Origin: Antedon mediterranea | Lineage: Eukaryota > Echinodermata > Crinoidea > Comatulida > Antedonidae | Direction of reading: 5' to 3' | Assembly: GCF_964355755.1 (NCBI RefSeq) | Contig: NC_092674.1 | Location: forward strand, 11,413,001 to 11,477,000 | DNA length: 64,000 nt | Shown here: positions 22,601 to 55,130 of the stretch, piece by piece | Layout: the number at the start of each line of letters is the position of its first letter | How positions within the stretch are numbered: position 1 is the stretch's first letter | Position numbers and translations under genes: made by a program | Notes under the pieces: generated by a model | Told to the model about the DNA's origin: nothing | The model's input: the letters and a program-made list of their open reading frames with translations, nothing else | Database searches by the model: none

Positions 22601-24046
22601 GAATTGTATAGAAATAATGAATGTTTATGAGTGCAATAGGGCAAATAATGAGGTAAAAGGTGGTTATATTTTCAAAGTGAAATAGAACATTTCATCTTGC
22701 ACCAAATGAAATTAACTCAATTCTGATATCTTGCCACAAATAAATTGTGAATTAGTTTACCAAATGTATTTCATCCATTTCTGCTATCTGAGTACGGGTG
22801 AGCAGACCTTCTAAGTTTTCTCTCTGCATCAAATCTCCGCTATCATCCACACCGAAGAACCAATTTGGTAAAGTCTCCTGAATAAACCTATCATCGGCTA
22901 TCATACATCCTAGACTGTTTCCTTCGTAGTAAGGATTCAACGTGGTGCCAACCCAACGCCACTGCAAGTACGTATAATCAGGGCGACTTTTGCAAAAGTG
23001 GTTAAGACTGGTGATGAACGCCCCAGGGGCTTCACAGAGATGGACAGAATTGAGAAATCCTGAAGTGTGTACAGTGTTTGGGATTACAGGATAGAATGTC
23101 AAAATCTCGTGGAACTTACACCAGGCCTGTGTGCACAGTTCTACATGATAGTTACGTCGTAGATGATGCATGGTTTTACCTCCACAGTGTAAAGATGTTG
23201 TGTGTGAGTGCCATTGGCGGATTTCTTTATCACTGAGAGAATTTTTAACATCGTTCAGTTCTGTTTTAAGTTGAAGTAAATCACTGTTTACCTCCTGTGG
23301 TAGAAAAGAAAAAATGATTCAACAGAATGATTAAAAAGCCATTATCTCCAGTTAAAGTGTCATTCCTCTACTGAAGGTGAATACAGAATTTTGAAATAGA
23401 ATATAGGGCATAAAAATGGAATATCGATTAAGCAAATCAAAGTGAATGACAAACGGAAATGACACTGCCATGTAGTGTGCTTTGTATCAGCAAAACGATC
23501 ATACCGTTTCTGCAAGTAAACAAGCGTGTTCTGTGTTGGAACATGCCCATCGTTTGATCGTTCAAGAACTTTGTGTTTTGATTTGCGCTTTCAATGCAAA
23601 CGTCAAGGAAAACCGGCATTGAAGCCTTGCACTTTCAATATAATTTATTTACTCATAAAATTTAGGGTCTGTGCGTCCCAACCACACGCTTTGGTCCGCC
23701 ACTGTACTATACTGTATGAAAACATTTTAAAAATGACTCATGGTAAAAGTACAGATACTACATTACTGAAACAAAAAGCGAATAACAAAAATAAAACAAT
23801 TACCTGAATTTTACCTTCAGCAAACATATCAGAGGGGTGGGGTAAAATACATGGGTTTTCGTCTTCAAAAGAAAACTTTTTTTCAAACTGGGCAGACGCA
23901 GCTAAATTTACACGATCAGAGAAGATCTTTGATGGGGAAGGGTGGTGATTATAACGTGGGCGTTTGGCCTTGTTCTTGACATGATGGCGGTAATGAAATG
24001 GTTCACTCCTAGGCCTAGTAGTAGAATAATGATTAACCTCTGTCAT
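13678..24046 (-). CDS. CMTR2: CMTR2, cap-specific mRNA 2'-O-methyltransferase 2
   Basis: Methylates the ribose of the second transcribed nucleotide of capped mRNA (cap 2). Exons (minus): 24046-23804, 23294-22761, 22518-22321, 21690-21570, 20480-20221, 19402-19223, 18890-18753, 18092-18009, 17370-17272, 17031-16940, 16339-16243, 15699-15601, 14987-14952, 14536-14449, 13808-13678. All have consensus splice sites and join in phase to 799 codons plus stop; the human protein is about 770 aa. The RrmJ/FtsJ-type domain shows the SAM loop HLCEAPGAF (~166-174) and the triad K141 ([11 protein letters not shown]), D263 (VTADGS) and K303 (FVIKMF), so it should be active. [17 protein letters not shown] is near-identical to human. 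The C-terminal half matches only in short blocks, as expected for its degenerate second methyltransferase fold. The 12-codon exon 14987-14952 is the least certain. An acceptor at ~24091 implies an unfound 5' UTR exon. Confidence 0.96.
15370..15480 (-). repeat. tRNA-derived SINE head
   Basis: On the minus strand an A-box-like AGTGGTTGAATGG is followed ~20 bases later by a B-box-like GTTCGAATCTC, the spacing of an RNA polymerase III tRNA-type promoter. No complete cloverleaf forms, so this is a SINE head rather than a tRNA gene. It lies in the CMTR2 intron next to the exon at 15601-15699. Confidence 0.55.
15917..15995. repeat. Perfect 18-bp-arm hairpin in CMTR2 intron
   Basis: ACGCTGATATTTGAACAT is followed ~43 bases later by its exact reverse complement, with further partial pairing inward (TTATA with TATAA). 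Likely a tiny fold-back element; a structured intronic RNA is possible. Confidence 0.6.
17482..17559 (+). pseudogene. Antisense duplicate of CMTR2 exon 11 inside an upstream CMTR2 intron
   Basis: 67 of 78 bases match exon 11 (16339-16243), but on the opposite strand, within the intron between exons 8 and 9. The plus-strand frame reads [12 protein letters not shown] where the true exon reads [12 protein letters not shown]. Similarity stops at the exon's 3' boundary, and SINE-like sequence starts soon after. It cannot be used as an exon of the minus-strand gene. In the pre-mRNA it is an antisense segment about 1.1 kb upstream of exon 11 that could pair with it. Confidence 0.8.
17590..17735 (+). 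repeat. SINE core fragment
   Basis: Carries GTTCTGGTGGTGGAGTCTTC, then GATAAGGACTATAAACCATA and GGTCCAGTGTACAC, matching in order the SINE at ~42200-42510 (reverse strand there). The tRNA-like head is missing. It directly follows the antisense CMTR2 exon copy. Confidence 0.6.
18969..19011. repeat. 43-nt near-perfect palindrome
   Basis: A 21-bp arm (GTTTGATAATAGACAGAGCT...) is followed after a single base by its reverse complement with one mismatch. A further TAGTTTGATAG lies ~35 bases on. It sits in the CMTR2 intron between exons 6 and 7. It could extrude as a cruciform or fold into a loop-less RNA hairpin, too tight for a typical microRNA precursor. Confidence 0.7.
19926..20203. mobile_element. 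278-bp TTAA-family MITE in CMTR2
   Basis: The tip AGATGTATTGTCCCC pairs with the inverted, diverged right tip AGATATATTATTCCCC, and TTAA flanks both ends (19922-19925, 20204-20207). The subterminal GTTATTCACTTTGACC on the inverted right side also occurs in the 30173-32624 element. It ends only 17 bases from the donor of CMTR2 exon 5 (20221), so it could affect splicing. Confidence 0.75.
20985..21560 (+). repeat. Composite repeat with tRNA-like insert
   Basis: Bounded by CAAACCTCCGCC on the left and the inverted CTTGGCGGAGGT on the right. Inside, 21118-21200 has an A-box-like TGGTGTAATGGTTATG and a B-box-like GGTTCAAGTCCC, followed by long T runs. Then come two diverged copies of a block containing TTTGGTGAGAATCGGAT and AACTGTGG, and an ACACAC run. 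It resembles widespread invertebrate SINE-like repeats and lies in the CMTR2 intron between exons 4 and 5. Confidence 0.6.
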
Positions 24047-24091
24047 GATTTTGTTGTCATATCTTGTCAAATAAAATCTAAAAAAATAACG

Positions 24092-26758
24092 AAGTTACTT
24101 ATTAGTATTACTATGCCGTGATTTGATGCTGTTTTATTCGATTAGGAACTTCTTTTGACTTTGATCAACAAACAAATCTTTTACATTTTATTGGTGACAA
24201 AAAATGAAAACTTATTTACTTAACGTTTGAAATTCTATGTTGTAAATTAAATAATTACACTAATTGAAAATAACAGTAGGACTACTCTACTCAACAAAAA
24301 TTCCAAATCAAATATGCCAAATTTGAATTGTTATGGATTGCTACATTCAGCTTTCTGCTGCATCTCTGTTGTGACTGTGAGGAGGCTAGGCCTACTAGTA
24401 GGAGGCTAGAGTACTTAGGCTAGCCAGTAGGTAGTACTAGCTAGGGTACTAGTAGTAGGCCTAGCTAGGGCCTACTCTCTAGTCTAGGTAGGCCTAGCTA
24501 GGAGGCCTAGCTAGGGCCTAGCCTACCTAGGCCTAGCTTTAGCTAGGAGGCCGAGGCCTTCTATAGTATAGGGAATGCTAGGCTAGGCCTACTAGGCTAG
24601 GCCAGGCCTCACTTTATTATCAACCTGATTAGGCCTATATAAAATAATGTTTTAAATATAATACCATAGTCTTCTACCATATAGGCCTAGGCTAGGCCTA
24701 GATACAGTAACACAGCTAGGAAGATCGGAAGATCAGGGAGTTAACAACTCCCTGGGAAGATCAACAACAAGCTAAGAGGGGAAAATCCCGTTGCGGCTGT
24801 TGTGCAGCGCAAGCGCAGTACAATTTGTTATTATAAGTAAACTGCGTTACTATGCGTTACATTTTCCTACAGTTGCGTCAGAAAAACAATCGTAGGCCTG
24901 ATTTAAAAAAAGGCAACGGCCAAAGTCCATAATTGTCTGTCCAGGCATCTCAGACAAAAGGTTTTTGTTAAATTTATCATTATGATTTTGTCTTTCATAT
25001 AGCCCAATGTGAAATTATTTTCCTGATGAATAGGCCTAATGAACCAAAAACAAATGTTTTACCGCTACAAATAGGCTACCGGCACACTACTAGTACTAGC
25101 CTAGGCCTTATATAGTAGGCCTACAACAAAATAATTTTATACAGAAATATAGATGTTGAGTAGAAAAGCAAACTATGACTTTTAGAAGAAACTTGCTAAT
25201 TAATTTAAAGCTAACTATCTTCCAATATAACAAAAAAAGAAAGGATATTATAGAAAATGAAAAAAGAAATGTAGGCCTAATGGAGACTGGCACAGGAAGC
25301 TTAACAAGAGAAGACAATAGATGGTCAAGAGGCACATAGAACCAAAACCGAGAGAGGAAGATAAAAAAGGTGGAGAGATAAAACCACCAAATATGCTAAA
25401 CAACCTGGACGAGAATTTCACATTACAGAAGTAAAAAAAAGACCCAGAAAGCATATACATTCGTATTTCTTGAAAGCAGCAGAAGTTATCATTGATCCAC
25501 CAACAAGCGCATAAATCTGAAGTAAGGCAAAAGTCTTACAAATAGAAGGCAGGCAGCAACTGATGACAGTCAGTGCTAGATAAGTGGATATCTATAACTG
25601 ACAAAGAAGGAGGTGTGATTTAGCGAACTAAAGTAAAGGCACACATCAAAGACTATGAATAAAATACAAGCATATGCTATCGATTCTAATCGTTTCAAAT
25701 GGATTGTGTCTTACTTAGAATGAAGCAGTGTCGATTGGACAATGTAAATAATAAGCTTAGAAAATATTTTTTTTTTGCACAGAACATTCCTCCGACTTAC
25801 TTAGCATCGCGTTTGGAACAATTTGGAAAATCGCTAAGGCAGATACGGGGCCAAACATTAATGCTCCAACCCATTCTTCTAAATGAATCTGGTGAAAATA
25901 TAAAATGGAGATGGCACCCATAATGGGCTTCTGTAGAAGAGGCATATAAAGCTTGCCAAGAACGTATTCATTGTGACTGTAAACCATTTGTAATAATGGA
26001 AATTGTAAATGTTGAATCGGCGTAAATTTAGTTGCACTAAATTATGAATTCTAAAAAACGAATTTGGATAAATATACAAAATACACATGTCAGTAAGCCA
26101 AATAACTAATTGTTCAACTGTTAAAAATGATACCAAACACGACAATATTTGGAAAGTTTAAAAATGTGATCTTGTTTTGATATGTCCGTAAATATTAATT
26201 TAGTAGTAGTAGCCCATTATGTTCTTCCAAATGGCAGATTATAAACTGCGAATTCGGATCGGGTTCGCCCCTAATCTTTGTAAGTACCTTAAATCATGTA
26301 TGCCAGACAGAACTCATAACTGTTGAATTCGCACGAATATAAACGCAACAATTAATCAATGCACTTGCATTGTGTGCCAGATTGGCGACAATTAGGTACA
26401 AGTAAAACTACTTGTTTTTTTTTGCATTAAAAAATGTTTCTCTTTTGAATTGCACTGCTCAAAAGGAAATGGGTATACTGATTTGAATTGGGCTCACATA
26501 TCACTAGCACAATACAACTGCAATAACTCAATTAGAGTGCCGCGTTCGAGAACAAAACATAGCTGTTTATCCAGGTCGTCGATATTGCGCTTTAAACCAC
26601 GGCATAACCATCTCAAAGCGCAGTGACAAATTCAACAATAGTTATTTCACAGTTATAAACAGACCAAAAGCCCAACCGTACGGTAGGCCTAACGTACCGC
26701 ATATATAACCGTTGAGAAATAACTTATTTCCTTATAGGCTACCTACATTAAATTTAAA
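24092..26758. other. Intergenic region between CMTR2 and the KCNMB-like gene
   Basis: The two genes diverge here, so both promoters should lie within. 24370-24720 is a dense tract of AGGCCT and CTAG motifs. 24780-24900 has several CGs and may be the CMTR2 promoter. No coding exon is convincing; the ORFs at 25.1-26.1 kb lack similarity and splice context. Confidence 0.4.
24370..24720. repeat. AGGCCTAG/CTAGGCCT palindromic tract
   Basis: About 350 bases built almost wholly of overlapping TAGGCCTA, CTAGCTAG, AGGCC and TAGTA words in irregular order with no fixed period. Smaller clusters occur at 2790-2840, 8680, 32030-32170, 33360 and 38390-38450. The motif is its own reverse complement. Confidence 0.7.
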
Positions 26759-27925
26759 ATGGGGACAGACGACGCTCTATCCGGGTTAATTTCATTAGGT
26801 GTAACGGTGGGTTTGTGTCTTGCTATCTACTATGTTATTCCTTTTGTTAAAACCAAAGACTACAAGGAAGGCGTGTGCACCGTGGTCGAGCACAATGTCA
26901 CAATAATAAGTGATCCTGAATGTGAATGCTATGACGACTACAAGTTGTTTTGCAAAGAAGGAAACTATCCGTGTTTGATGATTACTGTATTAGTTCTTGA
27001 TGCAGAGTTACAGAACAGAACTGCCATGCTGTACAAAAGTGATAAAGATTATGTTCAAGACAGTAAGGTAGGTGTCTCAGGTTAGATACAACAGTGATTT
27101 ATTCCCCCTCACCACTTATGCCTAAACATTAAATGAAGATGGATATGGAAGGTTGATAGGTGTTAGAAGTTCCTTCGACCTAAGCATATTTTGAAATGGC
27201 ACTTAAAAATATATAAGTCTCCAGGACCAGCCCTACCATGACTAGGGTTGACCTATAAGCAAATGTTGAAAATAAAGCTGCTATAGAGGTCCTAGGAAAT
27301 TGCACTCGATGTTCTTTGAAATATGAAACGAAATAAAGTCTCAGGACCATCTCTACCATGGTAGGTGCTTACCTATAGAAAAATAGAGCTACCAGATCAT
27401 CATAATTGCACATTTTGAAAATGGCCGTACCAATCCCTGAGGTTGGCCAAAATCATATCAATGCAAATTAAATAATTAATGATATTATAAAACAGATACG
27501 TTTAGATTTCAACTTCCTAGTTTTCTAATCAATAAAACAAACACAAGAAGATTTACAATCGTGCCAATGGAGAACAGGATAGTATATCCAGGGAGATGTA
27601 AAATAAATTTATTTATTTAGTCTGGTATATCCATGGTATATCTAAAACATCCCTTTCCTCATTTTAGTGTTCTTATCCAATATGCGACTCTTACGATCTT
27701 GGAAAAAAGAGGGAAACAGAAGAATACTCTGAATTTCGTGAAGAATACACAATTGTTGACAAAATGTTTGACTGTTTTTACGACGAGGAAAAGGATGAGG
27801 CAGTAATTGAGAGAAAGGTCACAAAAGCTCAAGCCATTGGAGCTTGTATTGGATTAGCACTCCTTGGATTAATTTCAGTATTGTTAATTGTATTTATTTT
27901 GTACCTCATTCATAAAAATTGTTAA
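26759..27925 (+). CDS. BK channel beta-subunit-like (KCNMB-type) two-TM protein
   Basis: Two exons: 26759-27067 and 27668-27925, joined in phase (AAG|gtaggt, ttttag|TGT), 188 aa; vertebrate KCNMB1 is about 191. KCNMB proteins bind Slo1 calcium-activated potassium channels in the plasma membrane and tune their gating. Residues 7-30 and 157-184 are hydrophobic membrane segments with both ends cytoplasmic. The ~125-residue loop between them has eight cysteines (40, 55, 57, 65, 72, 104, 109, 139) in the family order: C-T-V near the start, three Cys before YPC, then KCSY-x-x-C, then a last Cys before TM2. N-glycosylation sequons lie at N46 and N86. The second exon starts exactly at the KCSY cysteine. 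No close orthologue symbol can be assigned. Alternative: an unrelated two-TM protein, unlikely given the cysteine pattern. Confidence 0.85.
27185..27425. repeat. Two diverged ~130-bp direct repeats in the KCNMB-like intron
   Basis: TTTGAAAT, then AATATATAAGTCTCCAGGAC, then CCTACCATG recurs as TTTGAAATATGAAACG, then TAAAGTCTCAGGACC, then CTACCATGG, with following GACCTATA/TTACCTATA also shared. A tandem duplication, or two copies of an unknown repeat. Confidence 0.5.
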
Positions 27926-33445: not shown

Positions 33446-36400
33446 ATGTTTTGTAGTCGTATTATTAGAAGGCATACATCCGGCTCGGTTGTTGTTAGTG
33501 CAAACAAGTTGTGCAGCAGGCCACGTGCGGCGGGATGGCCTAAGCCTAGGCCTACATCAAGTAGGCCTAAAACCCATGGTAACAGTTACACTGCCAGACC
33601 CAGTCGGCATCCACCCAGTCCTATGCCAATAATGATTGCCCTCCTCAACTATAGACTTGGTTTTGCCAATGATGTCAACAAAATGTATTATTCAACGTCC
33701 TTGTACACAACAGTGACTGAATCAAAAAAAGTGTCAATTGTTATGAAGCCCGAATTTGATTTCAATGAGTTGTTTGATGACAAAAATATAAAAAAACTGG
33801 AAGAAAGCATATCAAAAAGGAAGCTAAATTTTAATTTGAATAAACTTGTAAGTATTTGATTTTACAAACTCAAATCAAGGAGATGTCATCTGAATGTTTT
33901 CTGATATGGCGAACTGCGGGGACACGCCAGGGCGGTCGGTGTGAAAGGTACCAACATCAACTCGGGAGTTGTTAGATCAAAAGATCATCTTCACACAGTC
34001 AATCATGCTTTAGTTTTATTTAAAAATACTTTAAATATTTGTACAAAGTATATTCATTCCAAAAAATAATCAAGTATAAATAAAACATTTTAAATTATTA
34101 AATTAGAAATATCAATTAAAATTATCAAAATAGAGGGTGGTATTTACGATTTTATCAAAGAATATAAATCACAAGAATGAGTATTCCGCGATTTTTGCAT
34201 GATAAATTTGTAACAAAGAGCGAGGGCGAATGTATACAGACTAAATAAGACTTGATAAGAATAGATATTATACATGTCACATTAAATAGAATTATGATAA
34301 TATATTTTGCAATTGTAAAACATTTTATACAGCATTTAATAACGAACTAGTGTACATTCACTTCTACAGAAAATGATTTACTACCATGCTAAATTAGTTC
34401 ACAAAAAAGGCCTAACACAGCAACACCAAAAATCAACGAATCGTTACTCAGCACGGCCTATTCTTTACCATTGTCTCGCACTAATCTACGACCTGTAAAT
34501 TAAGGATTGTTTTTATGATATAAATTAGTATAAAATACATGTTATTACCGGTAATAGGATACAATGTTAAATTTCATTAACATTTATTTGTTTTACCAGA
34601 AACAAGTTAAATATAGGAATATTATTAAACTATCCTTCGTGAAAACGCATAAATACTGACACGCCCGGTCACGCTATCGTAGCGCCCGGTTGATAAAGTC
34701 GAACTGTTTATACGGCAGTTTTTACTAAATAAATTGCATAAAACGAACAATTAAATATCCAAATAGCATTTAACATGATGTTGGCATGTAGTTGATAACA
34801 TTTTTTATCATGAAAATACTACCGGTGGTCTAGCCTTTGATTAGTGAAACCGTCTCAAAAAGTTGTATACATCCCAGATACATCCTCACTTATGGTGGCG
34901 CCCTACCACATGGACAATATTACTGTTACAGGGAACATCGCTATAAAATTGATATATATATATTCTATATTCTTATCCACTCAACTAGAAATGTCTTTAA
35001 GATATCTTAACCATAAAAAAAAAACCACTTCTAGGTGAATTTTGAGCCAAATGTGGCTGAAGATGATATTATATTATTAAAAAACAAGTTATGGGTTGTT
35101 GATTTCCCTATAACCATTGTCATTTACTGCGAGTTTCCCATAATTTTAGACCAAATCATAATTCTGCAAAGTTTTTACTGTAAGTCTTTCCATATTTCCG
35201 TAATTGGGCCGAATTTCTGTAGTAATTATGGATGTTCCATAGTATTTGCTGTCTTATGTTGGGCCCAAATTATAAAAAATCTAGTTTCTACTCAAAAACA
35301 AATAGGCCTCCATCTAGGTATTTTATGATAGGTTAGTATTATTCTTGTTTTGCCTTGGCTGAGCTCATTGTGTCAACTAGATTCATTGCATACATTTGCA
35401 TTGACATATGACAGCATATGACCTTTTTTCCCGAAGTATACTTTGAATAAAGTGGTTTATCTTAAGCTGAGCTGTAGTACTGTATGTTTTGATATTTATC
35501 AATTGCAGATATACTTGTGGGAGAAATTAAAAGATGTTGAAGACAACATGAATTTTCTTAAATCAAAAAGAGAAATGCTAAAGGAAGAGGCTAAGAAATT
35601 TAGCAAACTGGTAAGTACAGCAATATAAGTTCAATTACAGTAAAATTCCTCCTTTGAGGGGACACCATTAAATGAATTAGGGTACGTTCACACGTACAGT
35701 GTAAGAAAGGCGTGGCAAAGAAGTCCAAAGGGTACGTTCACACATATGGCCTAAGAATGGCATGGCAAAGAAGTCCAAAGGGTACGTTCACACGTACTGC
35801 GTAAGTACCGTTTACGTTTTAAAAGTTAAACCCTTCGTTTCTTTTTAGATTTTACTCTGTCTTTATGACAATCTTTTGGGTTTTTTTAAACCATTTCTTG
35901 AAATATAGTCCGCACTTGATTTCTAAATCAATTCTTTCCTGAAAAAAAAACTCTGCTTTTGGCCATTATTTACTTTTATTTTACCATAAACAATTTATGC
36001 GCTTTTAGATCAAGAGCAGAGACCAGCTAAATAGCTTCTTTTTATATCGGCTATAAAATTTACAGTAAAACAAGAATTAATTGGTAAATATCTTGAAATA
36101 AGATCAAATCATTCAACTGTCGCTGGAATAAATAACTTCAGGTATGTGGCTTAGTGAGTTGCTTTGATAACGCCACTGCCTAGTTCACGTGCAAGGTGTA
36201 CGCCATACGTGTGGTGAACAGGATGTAACAAGTAATACCTCTATGGCAAAACCCCTAATCAGGGAAAATTTTGTTGGTCCCGAAGGTGGGACCCTAATAT
36301 ATGAGTTCTACTGTATTCAAAATTTAAGATGGAGAGTTCTAAATGGACAATAAATGGGAACAAAGATTTAGTGTCTTTTTCACTACATACTATAAATTTG

Positions 36401-39400
36401 TAACTTTTAGATTTATTATAATTTCAATATCACTTATTTTTTATATGTTTTTTTAACAGAACATTAAACCTGAAGATGGGAATTATCGGACAGATGGAAA
36501 ACGTGTTCGAGAAAACTTAAAAAAAGCCAAAGTATGTTTTGTCAATCCTGTGATCTAGATTTAATTATAAAGTGGTAATTTTGTTTTAAATCGAAATTGT
36601 AGGCCTAAAGTTGTTTCTTTTTTGTGTATCTTTTAAAGACGTAGGGTGAGTCCCGTGTTCTCTGAACGTAGGGGAATGAGCTGTTAGGAGCTCATTGTAC
36701 TAAGCCTCGGCATTATGTGGTAGGGTAGCCAGTTCCTTTCCACGCCGCCTTTTTTCTCCCTAGTATTTTCAACCAGGTACTCATTTTACAGCTGAGTGTA
36801 CTGGGAGTTGTCGGGTATTGAACCCGGGTCTATCTGTACGACAGTCAAGTGTCCTAACCACTCGGCTATCCAACTCCTCCGTTAAAGACCTATTGTCTGC
36901 CAAAAACATGAAAAAATAAGATTAATAAAATCAGGCTTTGAATAGCCAATTCGTAACCGGAAAAAAATAATATTTTCACTTATAAAAGGACAAAATAAAC
37001 GGTTAAATTCAACCAAAAACCAATTGGCTGCCAGCCAATTTGACCAAAGTTTTTTTGGTAAAAGTTAGTAAATGTAATATTACAATTGCATATTCAACAC
37101 AAAAATTAAAAAAGTTATTTTTTTCATATGCCCTGGCACATTTATATTGTTAGCATCAATTATGTTTAATATATTAACTTTAAAGAAAAATTATATTTCA
37201 GGCTCTGTATAATTCTTTATCAGAAGAACTGTACATTTCAACACTTCAACTTCCAAACATTCTACATCCAGACACTGTAAGTAACTAACTTCTACTAAAT
37301 CTAGATATAGATAAGAAAAAAGTGCGTAAAATGTATATAATTTACAGTATTCATACATTGTTTAATAACTGTAAATAATGAGTTGGCACGGCATTTTCCT
37401 GCTGTGGCATGCCTGACATACCCATTATATATAGATGCCAATATCTTTAGATAGGACCCTCTGATTTTATGTATTGTAGCACCCTCTATAGTTTAATAAA
37501 ACTCTCCCAATATTTCATTTTTCCAAGTTGGAAGGTTTTATACTGACATGTGAATAAAAATATTTTTTTTTAGCCATCAAAAGATATGGTTATTGAAGTG
37601 AAGGGTGAGAAACCACAATTCATCAAAAACCATGTTCAGTTTGGGTCTGAAAATCATCTATTAAGTTATAAGTAAGTTAATTTTTCTCCAGATTTCACAA
37701 AAAGAAACTTAAAATCTTATGTATGGTCATGACGGGACCTTTTAGAATGTAAAATGTCAATCTAAAACTATGAGATTTGGGTATTCCCAATTTTAGACCT
37801 TAATGTGGTGGGGTAAGAGGCAGCTGGCCCCTATTTAGGCTAAATGTTGATATTTTCAATTCAAAAGAAAGGACATTAAGATCAACAAACACTTAATTTT
37901 ACACTTATTATTATTTCAAAATCCTAAATCCACCATTGATATTCCGTTCTTTAAATACAAATTGTGCGATGCTTTGATATCATTAATTGTAGTATTCATA
38001 TTACATACCTTTTTTTGAAGGTTTCAATTCAAAATCTTCCCTATGTACCATATACATTATAAAATTAATATTGTAGAATAATAAAAACAAGTATATGATG
38101 TTCACTTTCTTCTAGCCATGATGTAGTACATCCTGGTACCTGTTATTTACATAGTGATTTGGCATTACTTGAGATGGCACTACAACGGTGGATGACTGAT
38201 GCTTTAATAAAGAAAGGTTTTACAAGGTTCTCAAGCCCTGATATGTATAAACCTATAGCATTGGTATGTGTGTATTACCGTATATTTCGGTGTATAAGTC
38301 GCACTTTTGACACGCAAATTTGACCTCTAAATTAAGGGTGCGTCTTATACACCGAACATAAATGCCTCACCACACAGATTGTACATAGGCCTAGCCTAGG
38401 CCTATCGTCACCTCGTTTGCTAGGCCTGAGTAGGCTAGGCCTAGCTAAAGTAACTAACTAACGTAACGGCAACCTGCTTCTGCCTAGTTTTCAAGGCATT
38501 TTAGCATGATGTTATACTAAAAATATGATGAAAAGATTTGTTCATTATGGCGATAAAATTTAATTTGTAAACGTTTACGTACGATTGGAATAGTATTTAT
38601 TTATACAGTAGTTATACGCACGATCGCCGTACCCCCAGCGCAAGCCCTTCTTGGCGGCCACATGGTGTACGGTATTCGACTAGTATATTCTCCAGGTGAT
38701 TATAGCATGGACCTAGCGTATACACTTCTTAGATACATGGATACTAATCGAATACGATTGTCCGTGAAAACGTCCGCCCTCTCGAAATGATCGAGCGAGG
38801 CTAGCACACATATGTACGTGTATACACACATGGTCATGCACTCGATGTTGCGGCTGTTGAGGCTGGGCGCGGCCAAGCCTAGGTAAGAAAAAACCTAAAT
38901 AAAGGACGCCGTTGCAGATATAACAAAATATATTATTACAATAATATTGATTACAATTTAAAAAAACATTGTTTTGATGAAATATAAGGTGCGTCTTATA
39001 CACCGACGATATAAAAAATACCGATATTTTACTCTCAGTTAGGGGGTGCGTCTTATACAAAGGTGCGACTTATACACCGAAATATACGGTAAATGCTAAA
39101 TCTGGTCACAGTAAAATGTAACATTAGAGAATATCCAGTTGTATTTCTAGGCCTAGTACTACTACTTTTGGTGAACTTAGTAACTGATAATTGTTAAAAT
39201 GAGACAGTTTTATTATTTAATTATTTATTTTATCATTATTTATTTTAAGCTATGTTTGTCTTTTAGGAAGCATATGGAGTTGATATAACAAATCCAGAAC
39301 AGGTAAACATTTCACCAGTGTATCGTGGCAGAACAAATGTATTGCTACACATATTATAAAATGGTGTAGAAAAAATGCAGTACAAAACTATGTTTCTTAC

Positions 39401-42400
39401 TGAAGAAGATTAATTATTAGTAGATAAGAGTAATATAGAGTTCTGCGGTTTATGTATCTCAGTTCAGTGTATCTTTAATGCAAACTGTCGCTGGACCCAT
39501 TCAGACTTACCTGGGTAAGTTGGTTACCCACCAAAGTTAGCAATAATTGGTCCATAAAGCTAACCTAATGGAAAATAACCAACCAATTTATAGCCCATTT
39601 TTAACAATCAATTTTGTGCAGTATTTTAAATAGTAGAAATGAATTTAGGTCATTTTGGAGAGATATATTTATGATTTTGTGTGTTTTTTCTTTAGGTGTT
39701 TACGGTGCTAACTAGTGATAGTAATATGTACCTTACAGGCGTGTCATCAGCTGCTTTCGCAGGTAAGTGTCTGCAAATAGAACTCAAACCTAAGCCAGAA
39801 TTGACCATGGCAAGCATGCAGTGTACTGGTTGAGAAGGCATGGAGAGAATGAAGACAAAAAACTTAAATTACAGCCAATTAATAGTTATGTTTTCTGATG
39901 GTAGATGTACAACTATTGCGGACCTAGAATTAAAAATTGTAATGTAGGATACTGGTATGGACAATGCACTAGATTGGTCAAGACTCATAGAATTCTATTA
40001 CTTCCTATGGTTATAATCAATTAAGCTATGTACACATACACCATAGAAATGTGTACTATGTGTACAATGGCCAGTGGATAGGTAGATAATTGTTCAATTA
40101 TCAATCATCTGCATAGGCAGGGTATAGAAAAAATCAAAATAAAATATGTTGGAACTGCTTGAATATAAATGTATTACCAAATGTTTTGGACCTAGTCCAT
40201 CATCAGGCGAAGACATAAAACAAGACATATCATTCACAATATTAAATTTAATCAAACAAATCAGCCAATCAAAGATGTCAACAATCATTTAAGGCATAGT
40301 TATAAACTGTTACAAAGTAATGTAATACGTTCTTATTATTAGGTTTCATGGGAGTGAACTTATTTAGCAGTTAACTGTCCGTACCTTAAATTTATCTTGT
40401 GAACTGAGCCCATGCTTTGATTTAAATTTGACATGGCATGTTAAAAAACATTTTTTCGTAATAAATAACTAATGCTTTAGTTTTTTTACATTTTTCTAGC
40501 TTACTACATGATGGCAGTTCTTGAGTATAGTGAACTACCACAGAGGTTAGTGTACTACTCTGTCGTTGATTAATTGTTCTAACAACAGTGTAATCTGCAA
40601 TCTTCTAACTACAGTACACATAAAGTCCAAAATGTTTGCGTATTCTGTAATTAAGACGCTATTCAATTGTTGTTTGACGTTCATCGAAACTAAAGTCGCG
40701 AAAATGTAACACCAAAAAAAAATTTAGGGCCGCGAAAATGTTGGGCTATACAGTATACAAAAACTGGTGGTCAGAATGATGTTCAGTGCCTGATCATTGT
40801 GCTGGGAACTCGGTCTCTGTATCAATTTCATGATCTCAATATCTTGCATATTGATATGGCTTTCAGTTTACACTCCCAGCTAGAGTAGGTAAGACAGTTT
40901 TGTTAGCTTGCTAACATTTAATATTTAAATTTCCTCTGCATAATGCTTTTAATGATTACCATCAGCTTCTACCATGAAATGGTTGTGTACAGACATGTTC
41001 CTTAGATAATGCTTAACAAGTTTTTGTTTTGTTTTTGTAGATGTTTTTCTGTCGGAACTTATTATGATGCAACAAAAGGTATTGTCATACAATGATTTGC
41101 CTTATAGTATAGATGCTACTATACCAGATACTAAATTATGGACATTCTATTCTAAGATGAATATTGGCAAGAGATGGATAATGTCAATATTGTATATAAG
41201 CAATTAATTTTTAAGTTTTTATACATTCATGATTTAAATTCTTGTATGATACATTTGTTTGTTTTGTACTTAAATCATTCATCTGATTTTTTTTATAGAT
41301 TTTAAATCATTTACTGGTCTCCATAATTTGATGCAAAGGAAACAGATTGAGATTGGATGTCTATGCCATACAGATAGCGAGGAGGATGTTTTCAAACAGA
41401 TTGTTACAACGCTGTTTGATCTTTATTCAAAGCTTCCATTGCAATTAAGGTATTAGTTGATCTTTTTTAAAAATTTTATTCTAAACTAAACAAAAATTAT
41501 ACGGAATGAAGTTGCCCATTATTAAAATCGCAGTGATTAAAGTTTTGAAAAAGTTAATTCGGCAACTAAAATGGGCTATAAAAGAGTTAATTAAGAAATA
41601 GTGCATTTTTAGTATCTATAATTTACCTGAAAACTAACCAATCAAATGATTGTTTAGTTGTTCTCACCCAACCCAGGGTATAAAATGCTACAGTATACTG
41701 TATAATAGTATAAATAATTTTTTCTTAGACTAGTTGAAGTTAGTGTGCAAGACTTTTTACCTAGCATGTACAGAAAACAAGCTATTGAGGTGTGGCTTCC
41801 ATCAACGCAAGAATATCATGAGGTATATTTATAAACAAAATTCAATGTACAGTAACATTCTGATTATAGACTCGTACACTTTCACAATTGTTTTCTAATT
41901 TAATCCATAAATCACTTATTGCTGTGATTTTCTGAATAGATGGGAGGATATTCACCTCGAGCTACTTATGTAGTGCATTGTTTCTCACTTTTTATCATAA
42001 TTTACCATAAAACGAACATTTAAGAAAAGGGATGACCTGGTTTAATGTTTTTAAAGTATTATGCATTATTTTTACAAAACGTCAACAATTTTAGGGAAGG
42101 TGTCTTTAAATGAATGCAGCTGCAGTAGCCAAGTGATTAGGATACTTGACTCTAATGCAGGGGTCAATTTCTAAACTAAAATGACTCCTAGTCCACTTCA
42201 TAATGTTAGTGTATATATATAGCGCATTCCACAAACAATGTCTTCTCAATGCACTGTGGATTTGGATTTTACACTTTTCAAGTACATGCTTTGCAGTGCT
42301 GCCAACTACATCACTATTTCATTTGTCCACGCCAATGGCTGTGTGAAACATGTACTAGGTTTTTTAAAGTACACATGAGTGTACACTGGACCTACAGTTT

Positions 42401-44177
42401 ATAGTCCTTATCCGAGAAGACCACCAGAACCATGACGCGAGTAAGCTTCGAACCCTTGCCATAATGCTATGGATTACCGTTCCACTGTTTTAACCGCTCG
42501 ACCACTCACTACTTAGCTCTGTAATAACTACCTGGTTAAGAAATACTAGGGAGTAAATTGCAGCATGGAAAGGAACTGGTGACACATAATGCTTTGTGCA
42601 ATAAGCTCCTAACAGCTCATTCTCCATGTTTAGAAAGAATACAGGACTCGCCATTTACTTAAATTTATGTACGATTCTAAAAACATTTTGTTGTTGATAT
42701 TTGTTAGGTTGCCTCTGTTTATAGCTGTAGAGATTACGTCAGTAGACGTTTAAAGATACGATATCCAGCTGATTCAAAACAAACTGCTGCTTTAAGCAGA
42801 AAGAGACTCCATGCACACACAGTAAGATAAAACCATATTTAATTGTTGTTTTTCATGCTAAGTTATATAACATAACTCTTTTAAATAATATATCAAGATG
42901 ATAATTTAATAAAACAATGTATGTTGAGAAGCATGTCAGTACTTATAAACCTCCAATTTAAAGAAAATTACATCAAATTTACTATACTTCAATCTAGTTG
43001 TTTGAACATATGCATATTCTTGCATAGAAACATTTAGTATAGTAACACAGTACAGCACCAATATGTATTACACAATAATACTACCACTGTTGTTTTTGTT
43101 TTAAAAATTGTTTTCTGTGTATGTCTATGTTGAAGCATGAATACAAATTATAATAATAATAATAACAATAGTTCATTCTTATATAGCGCATATAAGCAAG
43201 CTTTCAATGCGCTGAACATTATTACCCCAGTCATTTCTTGGATAAAATGCGTATGGAAACATACTCCCATAATGCAGCTAGTAATCAGCACAAAGTTGTC
43301 TTGATTTACACCTGGGTGGAGAGAGACAAACGTAAGTAAAGTACCTTGCCTAAGGATACAAGCAATGCGGCGAGAGTTCAACACACTGCGCCACACGCCC
43401 TCACAAATATATTGAAAATGCAAGTTTCTGTTTCAACAAGAAACTTTCGATATATTTACTTTGATGTCTAGTTTTTTAATGTCGACATTGTTGAAAATAT
43501 TGTTCACTAAAAATATTAAATTTTTCAAATATATTTTTATAGATTCATGGAACAGCAGTTCAAATACCTGTGCTGCTAGCTGTGTTATTGGAATCATGCC
43601 AATCAGAGGTAGAAATAAAATATATTTGACCAAATAGTGCTATTGAAAATTAGATATAAAGTAAATTATTATAGACAGAAAGACAGGATTTTCTGTAATC
43701 TTAAATTTATTCCTATGATATGTGAAGCTGTATTAATGAAAATCAATCAATCGTTCCATTTTTAAAAGCGCCATTCCAACAGTCATTGCTTATGGCGCTG
43801 AACTTGCATTTAAGATACTGTACAAATTGTCTATTTGATTAGGTACTTTTTTATTTCTAAGCCGGATTCCAAAAACATTTGTTCAAGAGAGGCCTATAGT
43901 AGTTAATTTTTGAACTTTTTTAAACAATCATTTATTTTCAATTGAAAAGGTGCTTTTTGAAAAAAACAGAACATCTTGAATTTTAGGTCGATTTTTTAAG
44001 GCCGACTTTTTTATGCCTGAGATGCTTGAGATACAATACAATGTGGTTAGTGCCTATGCACTGAAGTGTGTGACTACGGAAGCTTTTGATAATATCTTTT
44101 AATAACATTATTTATTTCAGAACAACAGCTTTGTAATACCAGCAGAGCTAAAGGAGTTTGTTCCAAAAGCAGTTTAA
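33446..44177 (+). CDS. SLIMP-like degenerate mitochondrial seryl-tRNA synthetase paralogue
   Basis: Exons: 33446-33847, 35509-35610, 36460-36531, 37202-37276, 37574-37671, 38116-38263, 39267-39302, 39696-39762, 40500-40545, 41041-41078, 41299-41449, 41729-41822, 42708-42821, 43543-43608, 44121-44177. Consensus splice sites; all join in phase to 521 codons (human SARS2 is 518). Residues 1-75 have many Arg/Ser and no acidic residue, as in a mitochondrial presequence. A helical-arm region (~105-192) precedes a class II core. Motif 3 keeps VWLP...EV and C-x-DY-x-SRRL (450-458), then HTIHGTA. However, the TxE serine site is SSA, motif 2 CYRAET reads YYDATK, and the later GLYRVHHF reads GLHNLMQR, so the ATP- and serine-binding arginines and glutamates are lost. 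Aminoacylation is therefore unlikely. Insect SLIMP, a non-catalytic partner of mitochondrial SerRS, is the best-known parallel. A start at M63 is possible. Confidence 0.9.
35638..36313. mobile_element. 676-bp pogo-like MITE containing 50-bp tandem repeats
   Basis: Tips CAGTAAAATTCC and (inverted) CAGTAGAACTCA, flanked by TA (35636-35637, 36314-36315). Near the left end, GGGTACGTTCACAC and the following ~36 bases repeat with a 50-bp period from 35680 (copies at 35680, 35730 and 35780). CAG tips and a TA target suggest a pogo-like element. It lies in intron 2 of the SerRS-like gene. Confidence 0.6.
36640..36881 (-). repeat. tRNA-derived SINE
   Basis: On the minus strand the A box TAGCCGAGTGGTTA and B box GGGTTCAATACCC have proper spacing, followed by a tail with TACCTGGTTGAAAATACTAG, GGAAAGGAACTGG and GAGCTCCTAACAGCTCATT. 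The tail also occurs at 42525-42660. The head abuts the TTAA element that begins at 36886. It is intronic in the SerRS-like gene. Confidence 0.75.
36886..37140. mobile_element. TTAA-family MITE, right end eroded
   Basis: Starts AGACCTATTGTCTGCC after TTAA (36882-36885), then AAACATGAAAAAATAAGATT and AATCAGGCTTTGAATAGCC as in the copies at 2308-2480 and 19926-20203. The right tip is unclear. It lies in the intron before exon 4 of the SerRS-like gene. Confidence 0.6.
38278..39089. mobile_element. 812-bp TA-flanked element with TTCGGTGTATAAGTCGCAC tips
   Basis: The ends CCGTATATTTCGGTGTATAA are exact inverted copies of 28 bases continuing as GTCGCAC, flanked by TA (38276-38277, 39090-39091). 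Variants of GTGCGTCTTATACACCGA recur subterminally at least three times. The same kind of tip (CCGTATTTTTCGG...TATAAG.CGCAC) is common to old DNA elements in many animals. It lies in intron 6 of the SerRS-like gene. Confidence 0.75.
42115..42660 (+). repeat. SINE interrupted by a second SINE in reverse
   Basis: The outer SINE (plus) has a head near 42128-42165 (TAGCCAAGTGATTAGGATAC, decayed B box) and a tail from ~42525 (CTACCTGGTTAAGAAATACT, CTCCTAACAGCTCATT) matching the SINE at 36640-36881. Between them, ~42195-42515 is a second tRNA-derived SINE on the minus strand: A box TGGTCGAGCGGTTA, B box GGGTTCGAAGC, then a core GGATAAGGACTATAAAC and GGTCCAGTGTACAC, which resembles SINE cores conserved among invertebrates. 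It lies in intron 12 of the SerRS-like gene. Confidence 0.7.
43150..43410 (-). repeat. tRNA-like SINE with TATATAGCGC terminus
   Basis: On the minus strand GTGGCGCAGTGTGTTGAA resembles a tRNA A box; on the plus strand the other end reads TTCTTATATAGCGCATATAA then CAATGCGCTGAACATTATTA. A partly similar terminus (TATATAGCGCATTCCAC) is part of the SINE at 42215. It lies in intron 13 of the SerRS-like gene. Confidence 0.55.
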
Positions 44178-48317: not shown

Positions 48318-49085
48318 GATACAAGTACCTATTTACATGTGTTCATATAACCCTTGACGCTGACCCTTTGACCTTTTGTAATATTTTTCAATATGTGTAA
48401 CAAATAACAACATGTATTCGAACAATTTAAGACCAAATTCAAGTGTCTACGACCAGTAGTTATAGAGATACATACGGTTGTGGGTCAAAGGTCAGAAATG
48501 GCATTTCTGGTCATTTTTGACTAAAATGTCCCCATTAGACTAAATATAAATGTATACCTTCTGATCAATTTGAGACCAAAATTACCTTGCTGTGACCATT
48601 TTCAAAATTTGTAACCAAGCCAAAAATGATTGTTTGACCATCCTAAACCAATTTCTGTCAGTCAGATTCTCTTCAATGTGCATACGAAAAGTTGATCTAG
48701 CTACTAGAGTATGTATTTTGATAGTGCTGATTCTAAACCTGCAAATAACTTAATTTGATGATTAAATGCATACATTATATACATTTTTAATGGCGGCCAT
48801 CTTGGAATCCAATATGGCTGCCATATGCTATTATTATAAATTGTTCCATCGGACTGATTTATCATAATCTTGTAAGATTTGTCACACAAATTACGTTCGT
48901 ACGTGGTTTAAAATAGGAGCTATTATCAGTTTTTGAGTAAAAAATGGGGATTTTGAAATCCAAGATGGCGGCCAAAATAGGGTCGGGAAAAATTGACCCC
49001 CAGTTGCAATGAATTCTACTAGTCCTAAGGATTCCAAAACTGCCAAGAACTCAACATTATAATCTCACGGAATTACATTAGGTTG
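48318..49085. other. Gene-free stretch before the duplicated block
   Basis: Holds an unclassified repeat-like passage (TGACCCTTTGACCTTTTG, then GGTCAAAGGTCAGAAATG) and two GATGGCGGCCA-like motifs near 48790 and 48964. No coding frame. Confidence 0.4.
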
Positions 49086-49322
49086 CCCACTATTAGGTTT
49101 GTGGGAGTAGCAGCATGTGATCTGTTTTTCTTTAGCTTGTGTTGAACAGTGAAAGTCTTATTTCTGTCCACTTTTCATACTATTTCATGATTCGCCTAGA
49201 CACTCAAAAAGAGTTATTCAGTTCAATTGGTGATGTTGATAAGGATGTGTTTACTGGATACGTCAAAGAGTCATTTTCATTTCTAAACATTTAATTTTCT
49301 TTCAGTAGGGCTTCTAAGGATT

Positions 49323-49730
49323 TCACTTGTTTGAGAAAAGCAAGGCACTCTGATTAGCTGTTCTTCTTTCTCTGTACTTTCTCTTCATTGGTGGTGGCTG
49401 TTGACCTAACACGGCAGCACGTGTCATTCGTTGTGTGGCAGCTTGTTCTTCCTTCATTTCCATGATGAATTCATAGACATTCGGGTGACATTTTCCTATA
49501 GCGAGTGCGAATCCGTTATGCCAACCTTCCAGCATGTTGTTGGTTCGGGTGTTTTCTTCATGTACATTCCACATAGCGATGGGAAAAGAACCATTCAACC
49601 AGGTATCACTGAAATACTGTAGAAGATCGGGAACACCAGGATGATTTGCAGCGGGTATTTGGTTGACTGTGTAGGTAAAGAGGTTGCGAACAACCATCCA
49701 CATAGCCAGTCGGCAAACTGGAGTCGGCAA
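49323..49730 (-). pseudogene. MULE transposase C-terminal fragment, copy A
   Basis: The frame reads IPAANHPGVPDLLQYFSDTW, then NVHEENTRTNNMLEGWH, then HPNVYEFIMEMKEEQ. The pattern YF-x-x-TW...P...WN-V...RTNN-x-x-EGWH...HPN-x-x-x-FI...EQ is characteristic of the C-terminal end of Mutator-like (MULE) transposases. The catalytic DDE core and zinc finger are absent upstream, so it cannot act alone. 130 of 135 residues match copy B. Confidence 0.8.
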
Positions 49731-50086
49731 ACTGGCCTAGACCCAAGTGATCCGTTTACCATATGAATATTTACAAATAAAATGCAGGCATCAAGCATAA
49801 ATTGAATGTTTACCATATGAATATTTACAAATAAAATGCCATGACATTATACAGTAAACATAAATTAGCTTTACAAAAAAAAAATTGTTTCATTGCCCAA
49901 TTAAAATCTACTATTGTGCTGGTTGATAGCCTGGCTTTTCTGTGGTACTGGAGCTATGTTTACAGGCAATGGTGGTAGAGTACTATAAGGCAGAGATTGT
50001 CCATTACGCTTGTATTCAACAACTTTGTCCATCAACAAAGAAACAAATGAATAATTATTTTTTTCGTAGACTGGACGAACAGACCA

Positions 50087-50464
50087 TCATTCTGTTAATC
50101 GGTTTAATGTCCAAATGAGCCCTTCTTTCTCCATCGCACCAGAATTTTTTACCTCACTCACCTGTATTAGTTCAAAGTCTAGAATTGTACCAGTTTCCTG
50201 CTCCATTAAAGGTATATGTACAAAACTTGGCATTGTAGCCAGGAGAATCACATCTCCCATCTCCCGAAAGTTTAAGTCTCTTATCTTTGGTTGGCTGGAA
50301 GAGGTACTTGTTTTAAGTATATTGGATTTTCTTTGTTTAGGTCTTGCATTTTTCATGCTGCACCTTGTTTGAATTGGGGTGGATGACATTTGGCATAATG
50401 CACTGTTGAATGCTGTCAAAGTAGCTTTCATCATCGCTGTCGCTGTCATAATGGTTAGAAACAA
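50087..50464 (-). pseudogene. Second transposase-like fragment, copy A
   Basis: The C-terminal part reads MGDVILLATMPSFVHIPLME, then GTILDFELIQVSEVKNSGAM and EKEGLIWTLNRL, ending at a stop. The ILDFELIQVSEV...AMEKEG block resembles the region around the first catalytic Asp in a large group of uncharacterised invertebrate DDE transposases, from memory, with moderate certainty. It stops before the later catalytic residues. Copy B is frameshifted by a one-base deletion near 56018. Confidence 0.45.
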
Positions 50465-50629
50465 AGCTAAAAGCTAGGCTTAGGTCATCCATCTTGAAAT
50501 AAGCAGACAAAGCTTGCTCAGGATGTACAATAAAACAGTTCCAATTATGCTTAAAGACAATAGACAGAGGTCTAGGAAATGTTGATTAAAGCTGTTTAAA
50601 AAAATTGCCCGCTGTTACCTTTATTTGAG

Positions 50630-51030
50630 GAATATATCTGGAAGTTGATTCGTTAACTATGTCGTCTGTTGCTATGAACAATGTTTCCTTGAAATAGGTG
50701 GTAGGGGTTGCAATAAAGTCATTAATAATATGACAAAGCTCTCCTGATGATGACAAAACCTTTATTTGAGAAAAATATCTGGAAATCCACTAAAGCAGTG
50801 CTTTCAAGCTGATTCGTTAACTGTGTCGTCTGTTGCTATGAACAATGTTTCCTTGAAATAGGTGGTAGGGGTCGCAATAAAGTCATTAATAATATGACAA
50901 AGCTCTTGTGCTGATGAAAAAATTGCCCTTTGTTATCTTTATTTGAGGAAAATATCTGGAAATCCACTAAAGCTGTGCTTGCAAGTTGATTTGTTAACTA
51001 TTTCGTCTGTTTCTATGAACAATGTTTCCT
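50630..51030. repeat. Three tandem ~175-bp repeats (copy A)
   Basis: Each unit contains TTTATTTGAGG-AATAT, ATCTGGAAATCCACTAAAGC, GTTAACTATGTCGTCTGTTG and AACAATGTTTCC, and the first two add GGTGGTAGGGG and TCATTAATAATATGACAAAG. The same repeats occur in copy B (56420-56850) and twice more, decayed, at 60640-60870. On the minus strand each encodes a similar peptide (ETLFIATDDIVNES), so they probably come from an internally repeated gene. Confidence 0.65.
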
Positions 51031-51435
51031 CTGAATAATGATTTGTGGTTTGTTAATTACCCGCTCAAATAGTATGGGTAGGTCAGAAATCTGTTGGCCC
51101 TGTCTGCCTGCAATAACCACAGTATCGTATCTGTTGGACGAAATTGGGTGACAACCAGACGTTGTGAGGTTCATATGCTGAACCTCAACAATTTCTTTGA
51201 CCACTATAGTTACCCCATTTACTATGTTCGATCGCGAGTCAACCATATATTGAACCTCGTCTTTTCCCATAGTTTCCACTTTTAACCTAAACACTCGTGC
51301 AAGGCAGCCATATGCTGAAGCTCTGGAACCATATACACCATTTCCCACTTCTACTTGACCACTCCGCGAGGCAACCATCTGTTGAACCTCTCGATCTACC
51401 CTTAGTAAAGCCGTAGTAGGGACAGTCACGTCCAT
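51013..51435 (-). pseudogene. ORF with EVQ-M repeats, copy A
   Basis: A 140-codon frame with repeated EVQQMVASRSG, EVQYMVDSRSN and EVQHMNLTTSG at irregular spacing. Its start follows directly after the stop of the recombinase fragment. Copy B (57197-56832) is intact but shorter. No family recognised; it may be spurious translation of a GTTCAAC-rich repeat. Confidence 0.3.
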
Positions 51436-51766
51436 TTAAGTGAAAACGACTGCCCATGATTTCCATCTACCTAAATCTTGAATGTCATTCTCTGCCACAC
51501 CCTGAGACGCCGCCTCGGTCGCCGCCCCAATTCTGAAACCTTGTATCTGGCAGGATCTAGATCTACAAAAGAGGGCCGACTTTTTATTTAAACATGAGCA
51601 CATATTTCTGTACACACCGGACGGTACAAATATCACTTCCAGGAGTTGAAGCAAGGGAGAGCACAACCGGGGGCCTACCCGTAGACGTTTTGGAATAGTG
51701 CACCATCACGCACAACCCCTTCTGAAAGAGTCGCGTCCAAAAAGCTAAATTTAAAAAAAAAGTCAC
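51436..51766 (-). pseudogene. Tyrosine-recombinase C-terminal fragment, copy A
   Basis: Two overlapping frames give SKTSTGRPPVVLSLASTPGS, then C-x-VRCVQKYVLMFK, then after a frameshift QGFRIGAATEAASQGVAEND and IQDLGRWKS. The FRIGAAT...LGRW-x-S pattern is the C-terminal signature of DIRS/Crypton-type and XerD-like tyrosine recombinases. The usual His two residues before FR is replaced (QGFR), about 40 residues between GPLF-like and FRIG are missing, and no Tyr follows GRW. It is catalytically dead. Confidence 0.7.
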
Positions 51767-52348
51767 ACATAATAATATATATTATGGTGATCAAAAGCAC
51801 ACGCATGTATCAACATGCCAGATGGGAGAATACATTGTATGAGAGGGCAAGGGAATATTGTCTTTATCCAATTAGATCATACACATAATTATGCTTCTTA
51901 AGTAATTTAGAACAGATATACAGGCGTACTTTTACGCCTGCTTCAAAAATGTTATCTAGCTTCCAATCTTCGTTATCTATAACATTTGCACGATAATCTG
52001 CTAAATGAAATTTGATCAAGTTTCCAAATATGGAATTTCTATTTTGAAAGAAAATGTTTTGTACCCAACTTAATCATATTCTTGAATCGTTGAATATCTG
52101 TTGGGCGTACGGTTACAATTAGCCACTTCCAGGCTGAGCTAATTGCTCAACCATCTCCCAGTGCAGATCCATTAACATTTGAAGTAGCAGGAACATCCTT
52201 GGTAGAATTCTTGCTAGGCCTATCCCTAGTTGGTTTGCCACCTTCTGGCGGGCCACTTGTAAGGCCATGCCGACTGTAAACAAAATGGTTACCTAGCTGT
52301 ATTAGAAAATAAATCCTTGAAAATCTCAATATTCAAAGTAGAATGATT

Positions 52349-53207
52349 GCAATCTTTGTCCAATCCGCCCGGCAAGCAGGTATTAAAGTAGCACAGTGAT
52401 CCAAAAGTTTTCAAAATGAACAAATTTTAAGTAGAAAATGAAGTATTTTTTGTAGACAATTTCTAGTACAAATCCACACAGTCAGATGACCTCTAACATT
52501 GAATGAACAAAATGTGTTTCCAAGTAGAATCTCAGGGTACTTGCCATAATTGTTGATGTAAGGATACAATGAAGTAAAATATATTCAATTTCCTTGCCTC
52601 TTAAAATTAGAGACATAGTGCAGGCTTCCAGTAATAAAAATATAGTCATTAAGCATCATTAAAAAATACTCTTCATAATCACATTCCCATTTAAGAAACA
52701 TTTTGAAAAGATATGTTTTGTTGAGCAATACCATTTTGGAAAGTACAGCAATAACCGATCTGTAAAGTGAAAGTTTCTGTATTTATTGAGTGTCTATAAG
52801 TTTACCCTGAGCCAGCAGTTTCTGTTGTATCCTTTAATTTTGTCTTTGTATACAAACAACAATTTGCATTTGAACTGTGACATTCGTTTAGTAGTGTATT
52901 TATATTTGTTTAGTGACTTAAATGTCAGCACATTGTGTGTTAACACCAGCTATAACTGTGTGTTCTGGAAGTTGTGGATGATATTGACATTCAGGGTTCC
53001 CAACGGCATACATGCTTTGCGTTTGTGTGTCTTAATGTGGAATAGGTCTACCACAAACTTGAGATTTACCAATTGGTCAGCTGCTCCTGCGTTCCCCTTT
53101 CAGGAATGAATGTAGCTCACAGACTCTGTCATAACAATTTCAATAGTGCCAGCTTTTCTGTTGTAGAACCTATCAATATTTTCTTTTTTTTGCAACCAAC
53201 ATGAACC
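52349..53207. other. Spacer unique to unit A
   Basis: No recognisable gene. In unit B this place is taken by the GCGCAATTT-bounded segment (58198-59510). Several ~30-base phrases, such as CCAAGTAGA-TC and GTACAATGA-GT, recur near 54500 and 60400, so it is itself part of the repeat family. Confidence 0.45.
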
Positions 53208-53592
53208 GACTCAATCAATCAATAAATTTATTTCTCAAATAAAAACAAAAATACAGTTACATTTTCTAGAAATAATAAATAATAAATGAGAAAAATGGTA
53301 CCCCACTGGAAGCTTAAGCCTTAAAATGTGGGGTCCAGGCAACATGTTTAAAATTAAGGTAAGGTAAGATATATATATAATTATATGATAATGAACAAAA
53401 AAGACATTTAACTTAACAAATGCAGTTATAATTTAACTTAAGAGAGATATATTATTAACTTAAACAATAATAGTAGAAACAAGGTATTCATGTAATTTGA
53501 ACTTAAATGAAGATATAAAATTAATAATTTTGAGTTCTTCAGGTAAAGAATTCCATATTTGTGGTCCTTGAAAAGATATATCATGCTTGCCA
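53208..53592 (-). pseudogene. 5'-truncated LINE 3' end
   Basis: The minus-strand frame reads FQGPQIWNSLPEELKIINFI then SFKFKLHEYL to a stop near 53459. This is the typical last segment of CR1/Rex-type ORF2 (GP-x-IWNSLP...FK-x-x-L). A ~250-base 3' tail ends in a TTGATTGATTG short repeat, common in such LINEs. Present only in unit A. Confidence 0.7.
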
Positions 53593-53639
53593 ACCTCCTT
53601 ACCATCACACCCTCAAGACATCATTTTTGAGAGGAATAT

Positions 53640-53880
53640 CCTGTGTACTTGAAGTATACTTTGAACATCCAGCAGTTGTGCATTTGTGATGTTGGTGCAC
53701 TACACATGGGTCATCTCAGTTTCTCTTTGCCATCTATACTCGCATATCCTTGTGAACATCCAGCAGTTGTGTATTTGTGATGTTGGTGCACTACACATGG
53801 GTCATCTCAGTTTCTCTTTGCCATCTATACTCGCATATCCTTGTGAACATCCAGCAATTGTGCATTTGTGATGTATCCAC
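53640..53880. repeat. 91-bp tandem repeat, about 2.5 units (unit A)
   Basis: GAACATCCAGCAGTTGTG then TTTGTGATGTTGGTGCACTA and CACATGGGTCATCTCAG recurs every 91 bases (53686, 53777, 53868). Unit B has about two copies at 59511-59695. Confidence 0.75.
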
Positions 53881-54893: not shown

Positions 54894-55130
54894 GCCCACT
54901 ATTAGGTTTGTGGGAGTAGCAGCATGTGATCTGTTTTTCTTTAGCTTGTGGTGAACAGTGAAAGTCTTATTTCTGTCCACTTTCCATACTATTTCATGAT
55001 TTGCCTAGACACTCAAAGAGTTTATTCAGTTCAATTGGTGATGTTGATAAGGATGTGTTTACTGGATACGTCAAAGAGTCATTTTGATTTCTAAACATTT
55101 AATTTTCTTTCAGTAGGGCTTCTAAGGATT

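Follow-up and report, generated by a model that had tools for sequence, protein, structure and literature searches.

The gene at positions 33446-44177 on the plus strand of the 64,000-nucleotide stretch of DNA analysed here (the window) encodes a catalytically degenerate relative of mitochondrial seryl-tRNA synthetase (SerRS). By its alignment and by analogy with published systems, it is probably an echinoderm SLIMP subunit that lends its tRNA-binding coiled coil to a catalytic mitochondrial SerRS (SARS2). SLIMP reportedly entered the literature in 2010. According to PMC10570016, it is known from many invertebrates, echinoderms included, and traced to a duplication at the bilaterian root with later loss in vertebrates; it is also discussed in PMC10817482, PMC9437257, PMC3711456, PMC4826098 and PMC6023080. 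The gene illustrates a known protein well and is not a discovery. The original prediction, made from the DNA letters, had suggested that a deuterostome SLIMP would be an old paralogue lost in vertebrates, a view that PMC10570016 supports and at the same time deprives of novelty, as it is already published there. The gene and its product, hereafter the candidate, lie on contig C5, and the cytosolic (SARS1) and mitochondrial (SARS2) genes of the same genome are referred to as its own SARS1 and SARS2.

The loss of catalysis was read from 45 alignment columns that are invariant in nine SerRS, namely the human and bovine mitochondrial enzymes, the human cytosolic enzyme together with the own SARS1, and five PDB reference sequences, which we take to be bacterial. 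The candidate keeps 25 of these 45 residues and its own SARS2 keeps 43. By region, all eight residues up to P261 are present in the candidate, 4/16 between T299 and S364, and 13/21 thereafter, the changed human positions including T299, E301, R330, E332, F348, N424 and R459. The roles given here to the motif 2, motif 3 and TxE residues are those general to class II synthetases, and both signature arginines of the class, on which assignment as a canonical SARS2 depends, are gone. The motif 2 Arg (R330) falls on a gap when aligned by MAFFT and on an Asp if counted without gaps, with no Arg either way, and the motif 3 Arg (R459, within CAVPR) has become V491. Under T299 and E301 of the human TxE site lie V327 and S329, the site reading VSS. 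The residues for ATP and serine binding are, as judged from these columns, lost in the candidate. YYDATK in place of CYRAET and GLHNLMQR in place of GLYRVHHF, both named in the original prediction, are indeed present, and the degeneracy it saw at the TxE site holds, with the site itself displaced: the aligned residues are VSS, one residue earlier than the proposed SSA. Its claim that motif 3 is kept as SRRL has to be abandoned, since SRRL is another segment, in which the two SRR arginines (R456, R457) are retained.

A different choice of exons that would restore motif 2 was considered and rejected. In the three plus-strand frames of 38263-44177, a scan with four simple patterns gave no match to motif 2 (xxRxE), TxE or the motif 3 Arg, and the RxVHQF pattern had a single, chance-like match (RSLYQF at 40811) within an intron, so that the degenerate reading stands.

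The predicted tRNA-binding coiled-coil arm, by contrast with the active site, is kept. From W to HPD it measures 78 residues in the candidate, 73 in its own SARS2 and 84 in human SARS2. The candidate segment KRVRENL aligns with human REIRKEL, and the column of human R146 holds Arg in the candidate and Ile in its own SARS2, whether the sequences are aligned by MAFFT or counted without gaps from HPD. Heptad patterns compared with shuffled sequences gave p values of 0.005, 0.006 and 0.043 for helix 1 and 0.034, 0.095 and 0.29 for helix 2 (candidate, own SARS2 and human, respectively), a rough test at the sequence level in which the human second helix itself reaches only 0.29. At the other end of the protein, 23 residues follow the last conserved Leu in the own SARS2 and eight in the candidate, which is the asymmetry described in PMC10570016. 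The residue at the R146 position, Arg in SLIMP and Ile in SARS2, offers a simple test of the division of labour between the two subunits.

The gene model was rebuilt from the window sequence and bears out the 15 in-phase exons and full-length product of 521 codons that had been predicted. All 14 introns are GT-AG with compatible phases, and the spliced frame holds a single stop in 522 codons, the last one, while the other two frames (521 codons each) hold 30 and 58. A polyadenylation-like AATAAA lies past the stop at 44203. The N-terminus resembles a mitochondrial presequence in its composition, with nine Lys or Arg within the first 40 residues and the first acidic residue at number 76. The exons are as follows.

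33446..33847, plus strand: exon 1, N-terminal extension rich in Arg, resembling a mitochondrial presequence, together with the FDF...SKRKLNFNLNKL stretch
35509..35610, plus strand: exon 2, coiled-coil arm helix 1 (heptad pattern against shuffles, p 0.005)
36460..36531, plus strand: exon 3, tip of the arm with a portion of helix 2; KRVRENL with Arg at the human R146 position
37202..37276, plus strand: exon 4, end of the arm, LPNILHPDT
37574..37671, plus strand: exon 5, linker into the catalytic-type domain
38116..38263, plus strand: exon 6, beginning of the class II core, where we presume motif 1 to lie
39267..39302, plus strand: exon 7
39696..39762, plus strand: exon 8, degenerate TxE site (VSS)
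40500..40545, plus strand: exon 9
41041..41078, plus strand: exon 10, degenerate motif 2 (YYDATK)
41299..41449, plus strand: exon 11, degenerate motif 2 loop (GLHNLMQRKQIE)
41729..41822, plus strand: exon 12
42708..42821, plus strand: exon 13, YSCRDYVSRRL; Ser at the human N424 position
43543..43608, plus strand: exon 14, degenerate motif 3 (GTAVQIPVLL, Arg to Val)
44121..44177, plus strand: exon 15 and stop, with hardly any C-terminal tail (eight residues past the last conserved Leu)

The candidate is accompanied by a gene for a probable catalytic partner, as SLIMP is by SerRS2alpha. The canonical SARS2 with intact motif 2 for which the original prediction had called lies on contig C10 (L012, L013); it has nine exons and 510 amino acids, TGE, CYRAET and GLYRVHQF are intact, and it shares 49.0% of residues with bovine SARS2 over 390 columns and 48.1% with the human protein over 391. 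Its first donor site has two options three bases apart, both in phase 0. Contig C9 carries the cytosolic SARS1, in a model with incomplete ends. With the 387 candidate residues that begin at the arm and run to the C-terminus as query (E <=10), a search of the genome returned 13 matches, comprising 12 of its own exons on C5 and a weak one on the C9 SARS1, and the own SARS2 protein returned eight matches on C10 and three weak ones on C9. No further SerRS-like gene emerged from these protein searches of the genome, in which N stretches or missed exons could hide one. They are a better test than the profile searches with PF00587 and TIGR00414, which missed the candidate exons and may miss other degenerate copies. 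TIGR00414 (E <=0.01) gave 10 matches, five each on C9 and C10, none above the whole-protein cut-off, as expected from single exons. PF00587 gave five, two of which (on C11 and C1) are without a counterpart among the TIGR00414 matches listed. PF02403 (E <=10) gave eight, with only the first exon of SARS1 above the cut-off; the arms of both the own SARS2 and the candidate were missed, so this model is too weak here. A COX1 search for the mitochondrial genome, with its tRNA-Ser(GCU) and genetic code, found no match among the genome contigs.

The candidate is, as far as alignment and tree can tell, a paralogue of the mitochondrial and not of the cytosolic SerRS. The mitochondrial-type identity proposed earlier is borne out by its structural relatives, its place in the tree and its introns. 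Among solved structures, the mitochondrial SerRS of bovine and human origin come closest (E about 1e-37; 1wle, E 1.1e-37), and no SLIMP is found among the PDB matches listed for the structure searches. With the mammalian enzymes (1wle, 7tzb, 7u2a) the candidate shares the sequence family over the whole length, a similar arm length and the R146 equivalent; unlike them, it has none of T299, E301, R330, E332 and R459. PF00587 scores above its cut-off, and TIGR00414 (serS) covers residues 113-517 with 161.6 bits, about half the cut-off of 301.65, which fits a degenerate member of the family. In a maximum-likelihood tree of 11 sequences and 384 columns (LG+F+G4), the mitochondrial SerRS clade including the candidate has an ultrafast bootstrap (UFB) of 100, and the approximately unbiased (AU) test rejects trees that join the candidate to SARS1 or to the bacterial sequences (p about 0.0002). 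The branch of the candidate is long (1.70 versus 0.47 for its own SARS2), in agreement with the faster evolution reported for SLIMP (PMC10570016). Seven of the eight introns of the own SARS2 coincide with candidate introns in both column and phase, where chance would give 0.1 (hypergeometric 9e-14). The candidate therefore stems from the duplication of a SARS2 that already had introns; it has seven introns beyond the shared ones. The genome, in 18 long contigs, has SLIMP and SARS2 on different contigs with a largely common intron structure. The only SARS2 intron that the candidate is without is that after HQFxK, which is in phase 0 in both SARS2 (C10) and SARS1 (C9, L011; the SARS1 position was placed by eye).

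We propose a mechanism modelled on Drosophila, where the SLIMP/SerRS2alpha pair has been studied experimentally and human R146 corresponds to SLIMP R123 (PMC10570016). The candidate and the C10 SARS2, the latter in the role of SerRS2alpha, would form a heterodimer that has a single active site. The Arg at the R146 position would allow the coiled coil of the candidate to hold mitochondrial tRNA-Ser(GCU) by its T-arm, with the SARS2 subunit charging the tRNA. As the arm of the own SARS2 is shorter and without this Arg, the second surface for tRNA binding has probably become unproductive, though the arm has not been deleted. It is possible, and we would place it slightly below an even chance, that the pair has been caught half-way: SLIMP has lost catalysis, and the SARS2 arm still stands with its tRNA-gripping Arg gone, so that function would have been lost before deletion. 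This is partly anticipated by PMC10570016, which proposes active-site loss in SLIMP as the first step and echinoderms as an intermediate state, and in which the tRNA-contact positions of the arm are conserved in most SLIMPs and gone with the coiled coil in most SerRS2alpha. The text of that paper, as far as we draw on it, makes no statement on the R146-position residue of the echinoderm partner; its Figure 3A may show it.

Likeness to the SLIMPs of Drosophila (CG31133) and of echinoderms described in PMC10570016 is extensive: a mitochondrial SerRS paralogue with a lost active site, a coiled coil and key Arg that are kept, no C-terminal tail, fast evolution and a separate catalytic SARS2 gene. 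Several observations nevertheless weigh against the identification. The own SARS2 retains its coiled-coil arm, of 73 residues and with Ile at the R146 position, unlike the SerRS2alpha of most invertebrates; in this it departs from the protostome-type pair, in which the coiled coil of SerRS2alpha is lost, although the vestigial coiled coil retained by the Strongylocentrotus purpuratus partner suggests an echinoderm pattern (PMC10570016). The SLIMP of the starfish A. planci is reported to retain slightly more catalytic residues, and the candidate, without both class II arginines, seems more degenerate, a distinction drawn from the description in PMC10570016 only. The arm domain PF02403 scores 20.9 in the candidate, below its cut-off of 28.2. 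The tree holds no SLIMP of other animals, so that orthology rests on PMC10570016, and the position of the candidate outside its own and vertebrate SARS2 in the best tree has a UFB of only 59. The earlier expectation of a place outside ordinary SARS2 is thus met in the best tree, and weakly.

The latter point bears on the alternative that SARS2 was duplicated separately among echinoderms, or among deuterostomes more widely, with convergent loss of catalysis and no orthology to insect SLIMP; an independent loss of catalysis had been raised in the original prediction. A tree with the candidate as sister of its own SARS2 is not rejected (AU p 0.247, delta log-likelihood 1.25) and the shared introns would fit equally; the best tree goes, weakly, the other way, and the published monophyly of SLIMP sequences, echinoderms and hemichordates included, with a duplication at the bilaterian root (PMC10570016), makes such an origin quite improbable. 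Somewhat less improbable, yet still unlikely, is that the candidate is a SLIMP acting outside the charging complex, with the own SARS2 working as a homodimer and the candidate having other roles only, such as a Drosophila-type link to the LON protease. The arm of the own SARS2 and its nearly complete set of invariant residues would suit a self-sufficient enzyme, but it carries Ile where mammalian SARS2 needs R146, the Arg being found in the candidate, and mutants of DmSLIMP R123 abolish charging (PMC10570016). That the candidate is a decaying SARS2 pseudogene we regard as hardly credible. Its identity to the own SARS2 is low (25.8% over 476 columns) and its branch long, but the frame and all splice sites are intact and the losses cluster in the active site, with the arm Arg and the scaffold residues remaining. 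The claim of a maintained gene is thereby upheld.

Other features of the window and genome were noted alongside the SLIMP candidate. Its intron 6 (38264-39266) contains a stretch that resembles a mobile element and has inverted ends (ACCGTATATTTCGGTGTATAAGTCGCAC). Pieces related to it occur in the large SARS2 intron on C10 (L012 3805-5942), the three longest being 86, 86 and 97% identical. Neither the Rfam scan nor the tRNA scan had a match in the window. On the minus strand, 22752-24094 holds exons that probably encode an RNA methyltransferase of the FtsJ type, which we presume may be the cap methyltransferase CMTR2; PF01728 matches below its cut-off (E 5.2e-4), and methyltransferases in the PDB match distantly (1.5e-5). 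On the plus strand, 26738-27085 is an open reading frame resembling a calcium-activated potassium channel beta subunit, which PF03185 matches below its cut-off (E 6.5e-5). The Pfam model of bindin, a sperm protein of echinoderms, has one match in the genome, on C1 (E 2.3e-28, above cut-off), which supports the echinoderm origin that had been surmised. GFP, searched for to check against amphioxus, had no match in this genome or in any of 14 control genomes, which makes its absence uninformative.

Two copies of a stretch about 5.6 kb long, at 49085-54643 and 54894-60543, follow each other almost head to tail and match in four pieces of 96-98% identity, with a middle part of about 1.3 kb that is without a match among the matches listed. 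Both copies carry an open reading frame of 137 amino acids, for which the copy scanned gave no Pfam match; the repeat is either a young duplication or a mobile element. Across the whole window (1-64000), TAGGCCT occurs 50 times and AGGCCTA 45 times, where base composition would predict 1.9, and the palindrome TAGGCCTA is found 40 times.

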